A stretch of DNA of 64,000 nt, taken from contig NZ_CP117812.1 of assembly GCF_028728065.1 (NCBI RefSeq), positions 2,418,001 to 2,482,000 of the forward strand, in the 5' to 3' direction. Shown in pieces: positions 34,347 to 39,305 of this stretch. The stretch's first letter is position 1, and every line of letters begins with the position of its first letter. The position numbers and the translations under genes are program-made. This stretch comes from Lentisphaera profundi. GTDB taxonomy: Bacteria > Verrucomicrobiota > Lentisphaeria > Lentisphaerales > Lentisphaeraceae. The notes under the pieces were generated by a model. It saw only the letters and a program-made list of their open reading frames with translations. It was not told where the DNA came from and did not search any database.

Positions 34347-35162
34347 TTAGCTTTTGGTCGCTATATAAGTAACCACAAACGGCACTTTTTGAATCTGACT
34401 ATACATATCTCGCCATACCCCACTATCGTAAGGCATAAGCTTTAAAAGCTCTTCTTCGCTATGCCCTTCAAGCTGAATTGGCCGTAGTTCTAAAACTCGC
34501 TCAAGCCGTAAGCCTGATTCAATTATCCAATTAATATATGTGGATATAGGAAATTGGCGGGTGCGAATAAAGTTCTCTTCATCCTCTGTAAACCTCACTT
34601 CACGTGGAGGCTCAAAATAATTACTGACAAACATGCCTTCTTCAAAATCATCCAATTGAATCCATTCACCAGCAAAAATAGGATGACCTGTCGTTATATG
34701 AAGGCGACCTCCTGCTGACAACATCTCTGCACATTTTTCAATCACTTGTTTTTGATCTTTAGCAAAAGGCAATGCCCATGTACTATGGATAAAGTCCCAT
34801 TTCCCGAGCTCATTGGGATCAATACCATCTAAATCTAACTGTTTAAATTCTAGTTCTAATTGATTTTCTTTTGCAATCGCTTCACCATGATTCAGTTGCT
34901 CTTGTGATATATCTGTTACTAAACAATCTGCCCCTTGAGAGGCTAAATAAAGGGAGTTTTGTCCCGCGCCTGCACCCAACTCCAAACACTTCAAGCCACT
35001 AAGGTTTTTCGGTAAGGCTTTAACTTCACTATCCCCGGGAAGCAAGGGTCCATAATGAAAATCATTTATCGATATACGTGTAATTGATTGATATTCTTTA
35101 GATGTTTCTTCCCAATACTGGCGGCTTCCACCTAAGTCATTTTTTTCCACGTTTAGATACAC
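34347..35162 (-). CDS. Class I SAM-dependent methyltransferase
   Basis: The 271-residue protein has the Rossmann methyltransferase motif I, KCLELGAGAGQNSLYLASQG, an acidic post-I residue in CLVTDIS, and a motif IV-like region (WDFIHSTWALPF). The substrate is not indicated by sequence. It overlaps the kinase-homologue gene upstream by up to 26 bases; GTG codons at 35162 and 35150 are both possible starts. The overlap suggests the two are co-translated. It may act on a small molecule or on a partner protein. Confidence 0.85.
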   Translation of the reverse strand: MYLNVEKNDLGGSRQYWEETSKEYQSITRISINDFHYGPLLPGDSEVKALPKNLSGLKCLELGAGAGQNSLYLASQGADCLVTDISQEQLNHGEAIAKENQLELEFKQLDLDGIDPNELGKWDFIHSTWALPFAKDQKQVIEKCAEMLSAGGRLHITTGHPIFAGEWIQLDDFEEGMFVSNYFEPPREVRFTEDEENFIRTRQFPISTYINWIIESGLRLERVLELRPIQLEGHSEEELLKLMPYDSGVWRDMYSQIQKVPFVVTYIATKS

Positions 35163-37224
35163 TCTTTTTAATTTTATCTTCTAAGGATTCAACTTTCTTT
35201 TTATCAGTCTGATATAATACGCTGTGTTTATACTTTTGTTTTAACGCGGTAATTTGAGCCAATGCCGTACCCGTTTCATTGCGTTGCCAACTACGTTTAG
35301 CTGCTTCCAAATAGGCCTCGAAATCAAATTTAGCCATTTTTTGAGCTTCCTCTATCAAAAATACTTCAAGATCAGAAAGCTCGTCATTTTCCTTTAAGAC
35401 ACAGTTATGAAAATTCCTAAACCAAAATAATAAACTTAGTGCATCTTCTCGTGGATAATCTGAACTAAGTGCCAACAAAGATTCTAAGCTTTTTAGATTA
35501 AACGTCCCTAAACTAAAACTTTTAAATTCTCCATCCACTTCAGCCATAACGATGTCATTCTGGATGGAACTAACTTGAATATCTTTTTTATCTTTCTTAA
35601 TAAGCAAGCCTGATAAGGTCTCACCACTATCTCCTAAGGCACTTCGAGCTTCACTGGCCTTAACAATGATTTGCGCAAACTGAGCTGACCATAAAGGATC
35701 GTAGGCCTCACTATTTTTTAAAAAAGTCAATAATTCTACGCTTGTCTTCTTCCCTAAATAAAAACGGAGAATATCCCTTCTCAAACTATCTCTTTCACTC
35801 TGCACCGCTAGCTCACCTAAATCTTGACTCGGAAGATTCTGATCCTCTGACTCATTCAAGTTTTCATTTTGTTCTTGTGCTAGAGATGATTCCTCACTGA
35901 AAAAATCATTTTGGCGGCGCTCCCTAAGGATAATTTCCAAGACTGCCTCACGCCATTCCAAACACTCTTCCGCCTGCTGTGAGCTTGGATATTTAGCTAA
36001 AAAGTTTTCAATTTTTTTGAATAATGTAAAGGCTTCCACTGAACTGATACTTTGATCCATCGCTTTTGACAAAATCGAAAATTCGTTCAACCTCTTCGTA
36101 TCCCCTTTATCAACTTTGATAGTTTTATCTACGGATTTATCACTATTAAAAATGATTATCCCCAAAAGCAATAAAACCGTCACGATCGCTGTCATTACCT
36201 GTAACTTTAAACCTTTACGACGCTGACGACTTCTATTCTCTGTAAAACTAAAACGAGTTTTAAAAATCTTTGTTGAAAAATTAGATGTCGTTCCCATATC
36301 ATTCGCATAACGCCTAAGTAAACGTAAATCTTTTGCTAAATCGTCAAAACTCATGTAACGATCATCAGGGTGTTTTGCCATCATCTTACTAATGACAGTC
36401 ACTAAATCTTTTGGAACGGAAGGATTTAATTCTTTAAGCGATAAAGCATCTACTTCAAGATGTTTTTTATTGACGTCTTTCATCTTACCATCAAAAGGGA
36501 CCTGGCCTGCCAAAGCTTCATACGCTGTGACCCCTAAAGCATATATATCTGCACGAGTATCCACTTTTAAATTGAGGATCTGTTCAGGACTGGAATACTT
36601 ATAGTCTCCTTCAGAAAATCTCGATCGTGAACCTGCCAAGCCGATATCAGATATCTTGATCTGACCTTTTGAATCAATTAAAATATTTTCTGGTTTTACG
36701 GATAAGTGAGGTAAACCTTCAGTGGTCCACGCATAGTCAAGAGCATGGGCCATCTGAGAAAGTAATCGGATAATCATATTAACGGGCAACTTGCCTCTGT
36801 CATCTATCATCTGACGTAAGTTTTGACCAAAGACATATTCAACAACTAAATAATAGTAGCCACCCTCTTCGTTAACTGAATAAGCTTGAACAATATTGGG
36901 ATGATTTAACCTTGCTGCGACTCGCGCTTCTTTGAAAAACTCAAGTATATGTTCAGAATGCTCTGCCATATCGTTATCAAGAACTTTAAGTGCCACGTCT
37001 CTGACCAAGGTTTCTTGGTAGGCTTTATAAACTTCACCCATGCGTCCAGATCCAATGTGTTCTGCTACGCAAAACTCACCAATAATATAGCCCGTATCGA
37101 ATGGCTCCGGTACATTAAGTACTGTGCCACATGACCCACACTGCACTGCTTCTCCAGGCTTGGTATCCTCTACTGCAACTGCTTGTTCGCATGAAGTACA
37201 TTTAAAACGCAAAACGGCACCCAA
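35137..37224 (-). CDS. Zinc-ribbon serine/threonine protein kinase homologue, predicted pseudokinase
   Basis: The 695-residue protein begins with a CxxC-x16-CxxC zinc ribbon (Cys9, 12, 29, 32), then an Hanks-type kinase fold at about 47-315. The glycine loop (HIGSGRMGEVYKAY) and the ATP-binding Lys80 (VALKVL) are present. The catalytic loop reads HLSVKPEN in place of HRDLKPEN, so the catalytic Asp is Ser175, and the metal-binding DFG is DIG (Asp193 kept). One membrane helix lies at about 340-360, followed by about 330 extracytoplasmic residues rich in Glu/Ser and helices. It probably binds ATP but transfers phosphate poorly, if at all. The start (TTG) is uncertain, with no good ribosome site. 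Confidence 0.85.
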   Translation of the reverse strand: MGAVLRFKCTSCEQAVAVEDTKPGEAVQCGSCGTVLNVPEPFDTGYIIGEFCVAEHIGSGRMGEVYKAYQETLVRDVALKVLDNDMAEHSEHILEFFKEARVAARLNHPNIVQAYSVNEEGGYYYLVVEYVFGQNLRQMIDDRGKLPVNMIIRLLSQMAHALDYAWTTEGLPHLSVKPENILIDSKGQIKISDIGLAGSRSRFSEGDYKYSSPEQILNLKVDTRADIYALGVTAYEALAGQVPFDGKMKDVNKKHLEVDALSLKELNPSVPKDLVTVISKMMAKHPDDRYMSFDDLAKDLRLLRRYANDMGTTSNFSTKIFKTRFSFTENRSRQRRKGLKLQVMTAIVTVLLLLGIIIFNSDKSVDKTIKVDKGDTKRLNEFSILSKAMDQSISSVEAFTLFKKIENFLAKYPSSQQAEECLEWREAVLEIILRERRQNDFFSEESSLAQEQNENLNESEDQNLPSQDLGELAVQSERDSLRRDILRFYLGKKTSVELLTFLKNSEAYDPLWSAQFAQIIVKASEARSALGDSGETLSGLLIKKDKKDIQVSSIQNDIVMAEVDGEFKSFSLGTFNLKSLESLLALSSDYPREDALSLLFWFRNFHNCVLKENDELSDLEVFLIEEAQKMAKFDFEAYLEAAKRSWQRNETGTALAQITALKQKYKHSVLYQTDKKKVESLEDKIKKSVSKRGKK

Positions 37225-37332
37225 TTTTTATTCAAATAATAATTTATACTTGACTAGATTTTTAAAAGAAAGCAATGCGGTGCACTCGCTTTCAATAGCT
37301 ACAAAAGATCAAAAACTCTTAAAAGCTAAGAA

Positions 37333-38505
37333 TTATAAAGTTCGCTTTTGTTTTTCCTCTACACAGCCTTGAAAAACTTCTTCCATTCGACTAAAGTTTT
37401 TTTCATGAGTTAAGCCCTCAACACTCAGACGTGCTTTTTTACCCAAAACTTTTCTATGCTCACAATCCATTAAAGCATTCAGTGCTTCATAAAACTCATT
37501 TATTGAATCTGGTTTCTCTATGACGTAACCATTTACTCCAGATTCAATTAATTCGGAAGCACCATTAAATGAAGTACTTATAACTGGGAGTCCCGCTGCC
37601 ATTGCCTCAAGTACTACAAGGGAACAGGGGTCATACCATGTTGGCTGTAAATACACATCTGTCGCACTGTAGATAAGCTCAGGGTCATCAACTGATCCTA
37701 AAAATTTAAAGTGTTTTTCCAAAGATTTTTTTGCAATCATTTTTTTGTAGTTTTTCGTCTTACCATTGCCCGCAATCAGTACGATGAAATTATCGTGCTG
37801 TACTCGAAGTAGGTCAACCACATCAATAATTTCTTTCAGCCCTTTAAGCTTAAAATTGTGCGCTACCAGAGAAAAAACCACCACATCTTCTTTCAAAGAA
37901 AGCTTCGTTTTTGATTGTGACTTTTGCGAGGCTGAATGTGGATTAAACCGCTCCACATCGACGCCATTATAGACGAGCTCTAACTGCGTCTCATCTATCT
38001 TGTAAAATTCTTGCATATGCCTTTTCACCATCTGACTAATCGCAACATACTTAACCCGTTTGTCAGTGAAAATATTTCTTTCAATACGATTAGCTAATAA
38101 GTGTTTTGGACTTATTGCATTTGACAAACCTTTTAAGAATCTATGAAAACGATTGGTTAATAAGCGGTTTTGCCGATGACTTGCCTTAGAAACACCACCA
38201 TGAGGTTGATAAACATTTATCCCCGCACTGATCCCAGTTCCCATCACTACGTCAAAATTGCCCTGCTGAATTTTATGTTTCACCTGTGTCAAAAAACTCA
38301 ACCATTGTGACCAGCGCATCAGTTTGGCTAAAGCAGGCACATTTATAATATTGATCGACAAATTTACATTTTTTACGTTACTATCTTGCGTAAAGAAACT
38401 TACTTCATGACCACGCTTCACAAGAAATTCTGCAAAGTCCCTCATGTACACCTGTTGACCACCATAACGGGGGTTGAAGTGTTCTATCACAAAGGCTATT
38501 TTCAT
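37333..38505 (-). CDS. Glycosyltransferase family 4 (LPS-core type)
   Basis: The 390-residue GT-B protein opens IAFVIEHFNPRYGGQQVYMRD. The C-terminal nucleotide-sugar domain carries FVLIAGNGKTKNY-like and EAMAAGLPVISTSFNGASE motifs (the E-x7-E type donor site, with PTWYDPCSLVVLEAMA). This pattern is that of WaaG-like LPS core glucosyltransferases. It overlaps the following (upstream on the genome strand) WaaP-like kinase gene by 4 bases, so both likely modify the lipopolysaccharide core. The exact sugar and acceptor are not predictable. Confidence 0.9.
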   Translation of the reverse strand: MKIAFVIEHFNPRYGGQQVYMRDFAEFLVKRGHEVSFFTQDSNVKNVNLSINIINVPALAKLMRWSQWLSFLTQVKHKIQQGNFDVVMGTGISAGINVYQPHGGVSKASHRQNRLLTNRFHRFLKGLSNAISPKHLLANRIERNIFTDKRVKYVAISQMVKRHMQEFYKIDETQLELVYNGVDVERFNPHSASQKSQSKTKLSLKEDVVVFSLVAHNFKLKGLKEIIDVVDLLRVQHDNFIVLIAGNGKTKNYKKMIAKKSLEKHFKFLGSVDDPELIYSATDVYLQPTWYDPCSLVVLEAMAAGLPVISTSFNGASELIESGVNGYVIEKPDSINEFYEALNALMDCEHRKVLGKKARLSVEGLTHEKNFSRMEEVFQGCVEEKQKRTL

Positions 38506-39305
38506 ATAAAGTACTTTCCGACCTTCCTCTCCATGGCTTCTACTCGATTATCAATATCGGTCAACATTTTTTTATCTGACCGTGATAAAGTTTTTACGCC
38601 GCGGTAGGCTTTAAATAAACGAAGCTTATCAATACGCGAAGTCGATGGCGCTAGTGAAAAAAACAATTGTCCTATATCTTTAATCAGCCACCTTCTTCGG
38701 AATTTAGAACGTTTTTGAACCCGTTGTAAATCTATTAAAGAAAAGACATAATCCGAATCCCTTTGATCTACAAAGATATGGCAAAGATAAAAATCTCTAT
38801 GATTATATCCATGGGCATGAAAGTTTTTAGCAAAAGACCCTAACTGTTCCCAAAACTTCTTGTTCTCAAGAGTCGTCAAATTTGCATCTCTTAAAAAATA
38901 ATCTGACTGAATACCCGCCACTGCTTGAGACAAGTAAAAGGAAACTGCATGAGTTCCTATTCTACCCAAGCCATAGGCTAAAGGTATGGGTACAGAAATT
39001 CTATCTTTATCTAATGCCTGCGTATTTTCCCACTCGGTCAATGCCTCATAATGAGGTCCTGAACGCGAACTCGATGAGTGCTCTTTCCAATGGCGCTTCA
39101 AATAGATAAAGTCGTCTTCACACTTCACTGAAACAGTCAATCTACCAGGAACTTCTCGCATCACTGCTACGCCTTTGCAAAAGAAAAAATCTTTGAAGCT
39201 TAAAAGTCCACATCCAAGTAAAAGTTTTCTGTATTTCGGATGAATATCGAATTTAACGATTTCAAGTTTACCATTTTGAAACTTTACTGGGGGAACTAGC
39301 GCCAT
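38502..39305 (-). CDS. WaaP/InaA-like lipopolysaccharide kinase
   Basis: This is a 267-residue protein of the Kdo/WaaP kinase family, with the kinase-like catalytic loop HGYNHRDFYLCHIFV (His-Arg-Asp intact) and the metal-binding region FSLIDLQRVQ (Asp present), followed by the family ending RRRWLIKDIGQLFFS. WaaP phosphorylates a heptose in the LPS inner core. The neighbouring gene encodes a WaaG-like glycosyltransferase with a 4-base overlap, which supports a core-LPS role. Length matches the E. coli enzyme of about 265 residues. Confidence 0.88.
   Translation of the reverse strand: MALVPPVKFQNGKLEIVKFDIHPKYRKLLLGCGLLSFKDFFFCKGVAVMREVPGRLTVSVKCEDDFIYLKRHWKEHSSSSRSGPHYEALTEWENTQALDKDRISVPIPLAYGLGRIGTHAVSFYLSQAVAGIQSDYFLRDANLTTLENKKFWEQLGSFAKNFHAHGYNHRDFYLCHIFVDQRDSDYVFSLIDLQRVQKRSKFRRRWLIKDIGQLFFSLAPSTSRIDKLRLFKAYRGVKTLSRSDKKMLTDIDNRVEAMERKVGKYFI

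Follow-up and report, generated by a model that had tools for sequence, protein, structure and literature searches.

The closest described systems are pseudokinases from bacteria and eukaryotes. A 2025 review, which builds on a 42-family classification of bacterial kinases, describes seven families of bacterial pseudokinases in which either all three motifs are degraded or the ATP-binding or metal-binding motifs are changed (PMC12599244). The CP1 pseudokinases are described there as having a mixed motif pattern and no membrane helix, and as being tied to a COG3899 ATPase domain (PMC12599244). The eukaryotic pseudokinase STRAD-alpha is described as activating LKB1 through an active-like shape and not through phosphate transfer; the same source carries the caution that some pseudokinases, CASK and IRAK2, proved to be active (PMC2686265).

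The window analyzed here is a stretch of 64,000 nt of Lentisphaera profundi (NZ_CP117812.1, 2,418,001-2,482,000). Positions below count within the window, and all of its features described here are on the minus strand. One of its genes (35137..37224) had been presented in a preliminary description as a zinc-ribbon kinase homolog that lost the catalytic Asp, and as a possible scaffold or switch for its neighbors. We compared this gene and its product with orthologs, with active relatives, and with the described pseudokinases.

Loss of the catalytic Asp and shortening of the activation segment

The reading frame encodes 695 aa from a TTG start. Translation more probably begins at the TTG at 37212 (MRFKC...), which aligns with the starts of relatives (MRFQC or MKFRC). 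The protein has an N-terminal zinc ribbon with Cys9, Cys12, Cys29, and Cys32 (residues 5-39; 37108..37212; Pfam and alignment), a kinase domain (residues 46-306; 36307..37089; Pfam and structure model), one membrane helix (residues 341-359; 36148..36204), and a large outer part of about 335 aa (residues 360-695; 35140..36147), a layout that the preliminary description had already recognized. The LysW-like ribbon match in Pfam (E = 1.7e-5) is below the curated cut-off of the family, and the four ribbon Cys are invariant in 52/52 aligned relatives. The kinase domain matches Pfam Pkinase at 155 bits (cut-off 31.7), which places it within the kinase fold. The protein is outside the equivalog of PASTA-domain Stk1/PknB kinases (NF033483), with a score of 249 bits and a cut-off of 450. 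The helix was located with a simple hydropathy window and is preceded by a basic stretch, which suggests that the kinase domain is on the inner side of the membrane. The juxtamembrane stretch is Ser/Thr-rich, and a Pfam search of the outer part matched no family. The closest named match to the whole protein is from Lentisphaera marina (78% identity across its length), and a whole-protein scan of named genome contigs returned only L. marina and one weak match from Bacilli. Promoter-like and terminator-like sites were no more frequent than expected by chance. The 108-nt gap between the upstream glycosyltransferase (GT4) gene and the pseudokinase gene (37225-37332) has a better predicted fold than its shuffles (z = -2.5, with 4/200 as good), which may be chance.

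Alignment of the kinase domain confirmed the residues given in the preliminary description. The ATP-binding (VAIK) lysine, Lys80 (36985..36987), and the metal-binding Asp193 of the DIG motif (SDIG; 36646..36648) are kept. The catalytic loop is HLSVKPEN (residues 173-180; 36685..36708), and Ser175, encoded by TCC (36700..36702), occupies the position of the catalytic Asp of active kinases.

Our search found six genomes of the order, including that of L. profundi, from three genera; three of the six are Lentisphaera. Each has an ortholog with an open frame, and each ortholog lacks the HRD Asp. The residue at that position is S, S, A, N, N, and N, in the loops HLSVKPEN, HLSVKPEN, HLAVKPEN, HQNIKPEN, HENIKPEN, and HENIKPEN, respectively. 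A sequencing error or an oddity of a single strain is ruled out by the occurrence of the loss in all six. Lys80, Glu99, Lys177, Asn180, and Asp193 are retained in all of the orthologs, and the Lys, Glu, Asn, and DFG Asp do not vary across 52/52 aligned rows. We compared 73 distinct zinc-ribbon kinase rows in all, which were loci among the best-scoring of 59 relatives, 197 genomes of the class, and a phylum sample of 387. The 67 rows other than the orthologs (15 from the order itself, of which three are fragments, and 52 from outside the order) all have the catalytic Asp; 52 of these loops read HRDIKPDN and the remainder are variants that contain the D. The preliminary description had named an Asp in the orthologs as the result that would speak against a pseudokinase, and the comparison came out the other way.

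The activation segment is also altered. From the DIG Asp to the SPE Glu it has 22 residues in L. profundi (36583..36648; from alignment) and 21-22 in the six orthologs, versus 27-32 in 66 of the other rows; the one remaining row, a cut fragment, has a segment of 23. The GTPxY/GSPxY stretch of active kinases is absent from all six orthologs. The shortened segment is thus a second lesion and supports inactivity. We looked beside the Asp site for a compensating acidic residue and found none common to the six, with a Glu at the Arg position in two of them. Measured against active PknB-type kinases, the protein has the VAIK Lys, the alpha-C Glu, the loop Asn, and the DFG Asp, and lacks the HRD Asp and a full activation segment. 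The absence of the Asp from all six orthologs and the shortened activation segment support the view of the preliminary description, and we consider it very probable that the gene product is a pseudokinase.

Descent and conservation of the pseudokinase

The six orthologs form one clade (support 99/92) in a tree of 55 kinases from whose alignment the catalytic loop and activation segment were excluded, and branching inside this clade matches the three genera. Since they are one clade, a single loss of the Asp suffices. A tree of 75 rows, eight of them from pseudokinases (two being cut duplicates), agrees, with the caveat that long branches meet within the clade. Grouping the clade as sister to the active zinc-ribbon kinases that we call L061-type costs 3.04 log units (AU test, p = 0.40). 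A search of the class with a profile of the six rows gave 766-1196 bits for the six, which had themselves built the profile, and no more than 406 bits for the rest.

Synonymous sites of the pseudokinase gene are saturated among the three Lentisphaera genomes (pS 0.74-0.77), and for this reason no dN/dS ratio is given. The kinase domain is 90.2, 90.9, and 93.9% identical among these genomes. For the same three, the values are 66-77% for the outer rest of the protein, 63-74% for the neighboring WaaP-family kinase, 66-73% for GT4, 76-79% for the methyltransferase, and 93-96% for the kinase part of the active L061-type kinase. The dead kinase domain is conserved almost as well as the live one. At the level of sequence, selection maintains the kinase domain of the pseudokinase.

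Relationship to active receptor kinases

A structure model of residues 5-312, made with a 52-row alignment, had a pLDDT of 92.5 and a pTM of 0.88; its least confident regions were the shortened activation segment and the C terminus. The model of the full-length protein was poor (pLDDT 61) and only the kinase part was used. The nearest solved structure is M. tuberculosis PknB (Z 33.6, rmsd 1.7 over 257 residues), followed by other kinases. Leu73 of the pseudokinase aligns with Leu33, a dimer residue of PknB, and the dimer partner Asp76 is retained neither here nor in the active kin; we draw no claim on PknB dimer residues.

The second half of the outer part is homologous to the outer domain of active kinases found across the class. 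Comparison by hhalign with the outer parts of 56 active kinases of the class gave 96.2% (E = 2e-9, 185 columns), and a control with a reversed profile gave 0.2%. This 56-row profile has no member from the order, and four rows of the pseudokinase family had been left out of the initial 60. A profile comparison with 13 active-kinase rows gave 85% (E = 6e-6). With a homologous outer domain, the pseudokinase matches the active receptor kinases in its entire domain layout, and its sequence points to descent from zinc-ribbon receptor kinases, which are active in other members of the class.

The 56-row profile detects the four long pseudokinases, with E-values from 1e-5 to 4e-7. In a heuristic search, the 13-row outer profile found a match in one of the six genomes, a 5'-cut ORF of genome G003, and missed the pseudokinases themselves. 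Because of this match, the claim that the pseudokinase is the sole carrier of the class-wide outer domain within the order is weakened. In the pseudokinases of genomes G004 and G005, most of the outer domain is gone and only a membrane-near piece is left, and sensing through this domain therefore cannot be universal.

Other kinases of L. profundi

The L. profundi genome has 105 Pfam kinase matches, among which the pseudokinase ranks 15th at 157.8 bits. With residue columns taken from an automatic alignment, the catalytic Asp is kept in 92 of the 105 distinct cores and absent in 13. The VAIK Lys, DFG Asp, and loop Asn are all present in three of these 13, namely the pseudokinase, one core with the loop HHHLSPRN, and one weak match below the Pfam cut-off. 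Of these three, the pseudokinase alone still has the catalytic-loop Lys, as part of KPEN.

The kinome had other unusual members. In 57 of the 92 kinases that keep the Asp, the VAIK lysine is missing and the Gly-rich loop ends in a Lys (GxGGMK). Another 32 have the VAIK lysine and no such Lys, none has both, and three have neither, two of them apparently through a gap and a misalignment; these counts cover loci of this genome between L022 and L165. The alignment indicates a Wnk-like lysine shift in a large bacterial kinase expansion; the shift is described for eukaryotic Wnk kinases, at K55 in PKA numbering (PMC1821047). Several degenerate kinase-like proteins of the same genome (L166-L168, L170-L173, and L177) have lost the Asp or the whole loop, with loops of HFNLNPxN (L167, L168), HFSLTPRN (L177), or YGAFLxSD-like sequence (L170-L173). 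One long relative of the zinc-ribbon kinases, L077 (C2:2374629-2375585; 875-aa frame; loop HHHLSPRN), has lost both the catalytic Asp and the catalytic Lys.

Neighboring genes and a candidate partner

Downstream of the pseudokinase gene and overlapping it by 26 bp is a gene for a class I methyltransferase (34347..35162). Upstream are genes for a GT4 glycosyltransferase (37333..38505) and a Kdo/WaaP-family kinase (38502..39305). The order WaaP-family kinase, GT4, pseudokinase, methyltransferase, aquaporin is found in 3/3 Lentisphaera genomes, with the overlap between the methyltransferase and pseudokinase genes ranging from 14 to 26 bp. This set of neighbors is kept in none of the three genomes of the other two genera. 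A function based on these neighbors was rejected as a general explanation, as the gene order is not kept beyond Lentisphaera.

In G004 and G005, an active (HRD) zinc-ribbon kinase gene follows the pseudokinase gene on the same strand after approximately 160 bp; this adjacency is limited to one genus and two of the six genomes. The L061-type active kinase has an ortholog in all six genomes, and these form one clade (100/99). Its gene and that of the pseudokinase are approximately 23 kb apart on one contig in G003, and are on different contigs in the two-contig genome of L. profundi.

Two observations concern the surroundings of the L061-type kinase. This kinase (L061:1501-3497, L095, L096, and L097) is followed by a calcineurin-like metallophosphoesterase gene in 4/4 genomes examined, and the two may form a kinase-phosphatase pair. 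Directly upstream of the kinase in L. profundi is a gene for a 383-aa protein with no Pfam match above cut-off (L061:345-1496), in the slot that is held by the pseudokinase in G004 and G005.

Proposed function and alternatives

The best overall explanation, to which we give about an even chance, is that the protein is a membrane-anchored pseudokinase of the order and acts as a nucleotide-binding switch of a partner kinase. It is likely to bind nucleotide, judging from the residues it keeps, and an ATP-dependent switch is plausible because all of the nucleotide and metal residues are retained. The pseudokinase would bind Mg-ATP and take up a closed, active-like shape without phosphate transfer, and its outer domain would sense something in the envelope. 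The active-like shape would then switch the partner through a kinase-kinase contact like that of STRAD-alpha and LKB1. Among possible partners, we tentatively favor the active L061-type zinc-ribbon kinase. A further possibility, which we regard as rather doubtful, is that a single lineage-wide receptor kinase was split into a sensor pseudokinase and an active zinc-ribbon kinase. The outer domain and the nucleotide switch would have stayed with the pseudokinase, and catalysis with the active kinase, which ends at the membrane helix. The signal would pass by contact between kinase and pseudokinase, as in the STRAD/LKB1 pair or in HER3/EGFR, a kinase-pseudokinase contact pair.

Several other explanations seem to us improbable. 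The protein might still be an enzyme, by weak phosphotransfer without the Asp or by a different ATP-dependent transfer, for example an AMPylation like that of SelO. Every ATP and Mg residue is retained, and SelO and SidJ are described as kinase folds that lack the Asp and do other chemistry (PMC12599244). However, the GTPxY stretch of the activation segment is absent, no single residue has been fixed in place of the Asp (S, A, or N is found), and the fold is an ordinary PknB-like one; we consider such an enzyme unlikely. About equally unlikely is a scaffold that works without nucleotide, as a phosphorylation target or an adaptor, its ATP residues merely holding the fold. The pseudokinase domain of MviN is described as such a docking platform, for PknB and FhaA (PMC12599244), and the Ser/Thr-rich juxtamembrane stretch would be in keeping with this role. 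However, MviN lost its ATP residues and its pocket is filled, and without nucleotide there is little reason for the ATP residues to be conserved in all six orthologs.

A scaffold or switch for the neighboring methyltransferase and lipopolysaccharide-core enzymes, as the preliminary description had suggested, fares slightly worse still. In its favor, gene order and methyltransferase overlap are constant within Lentisphaera, and the overlap allows translational coupling. But the pseudokinase is present in the three genomes of the other genera, where other genes, in two cases an active zinc-ribbon kinase, are its neighbors, and evolution is faster in GT4 and WaaP than in the kinase domain; this suggestion was therefore not supported. 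Finally, a decaying gene without function would account for the missing catalytic residue, but the open frame in every genome and a kinase domain that is 90-94% identical despite saturated synonymous sites make decay extremely improbable.

A conserved family that has lost the catalytic Asp and part of the activation segment, and none of its ATP-binding and metal-binding residues, is well suited to the question of whether dead kinases with bound nucleotide serve bacteria as allosteric switches. The active sister kinases and the linked active kinase, the candidate partner, allow this to be tested directly.

Comparison with known systems

The pseudokinase is like M. tuberculosis PknB in its kinase fold, its one membrane helix, and the placement of an outer domain after the kinase. 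PknB differs in having the HRD Asp, a full activation loop, and PASTA outer domains, whereas the Lentisphaera protein has a zinc ribbon in front of its kinase domain and an outer part without a Pfam match. The zinc-ribbon receptor kinases of the class are closer, with the same ribbon, kinase, and helix, a homologous outer domain, and approximately 40% identity in the kinase, but those from outside the order (52/52) keep the Asp and a longer segment with GTPxY/GSPxY.

STRAD-alpha is alike in having Ser in place of the HRD Asp; unlike the Lentisphaera protein, which keeps these residues, it is described as having lost the VAIK Lys, the Asn, and the DFG, and as binding ATP without Mg (PMC2686265). 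The likeness is an analogy of mechanism only. The MviN pseudokinase domain (ActPs3 family) is also a bacterial pseudokinase in a membrane protein, but is described as deficient in ATP and Mg binding, with all three motifs lost (PMC12599244). The DYD and DLHK pseudokinases are bacterial and keep the motifs in part; in the published description, it is ATP or metal residues that are missing from them, and the HRD Asp persists in DLHK, the reverse of the pattern here. None of the matches listed in a non-exhaustive literature search dealt with this protein.

Set against the family descriptions in PMC12599244, the protein fits none of the seven fully. The ActPs1, ActPs2, ActPs3, and GLW families have three degraded motifs, and here only the HRD motif is lost. 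DLHK proteins have degraded ATP and metal motifs and no membrane helix, and the protein has the reverse pattern and one helix. DYD proteins have Arg in place of the ATP-binding Lys, lack the alpha-C Glu, and carry a DYD motif, and here Lys80, Glu99, and DIG are present. The protein also falls outside CP1, since it has a membrane helix and its outer part matches no Pfam family. What is new, in that it is not among the seven families as described in PMC12599244, is a zinc-ribbon membrane protein in which the loss is confined to the HRD Asp and a portion of the activation segment.
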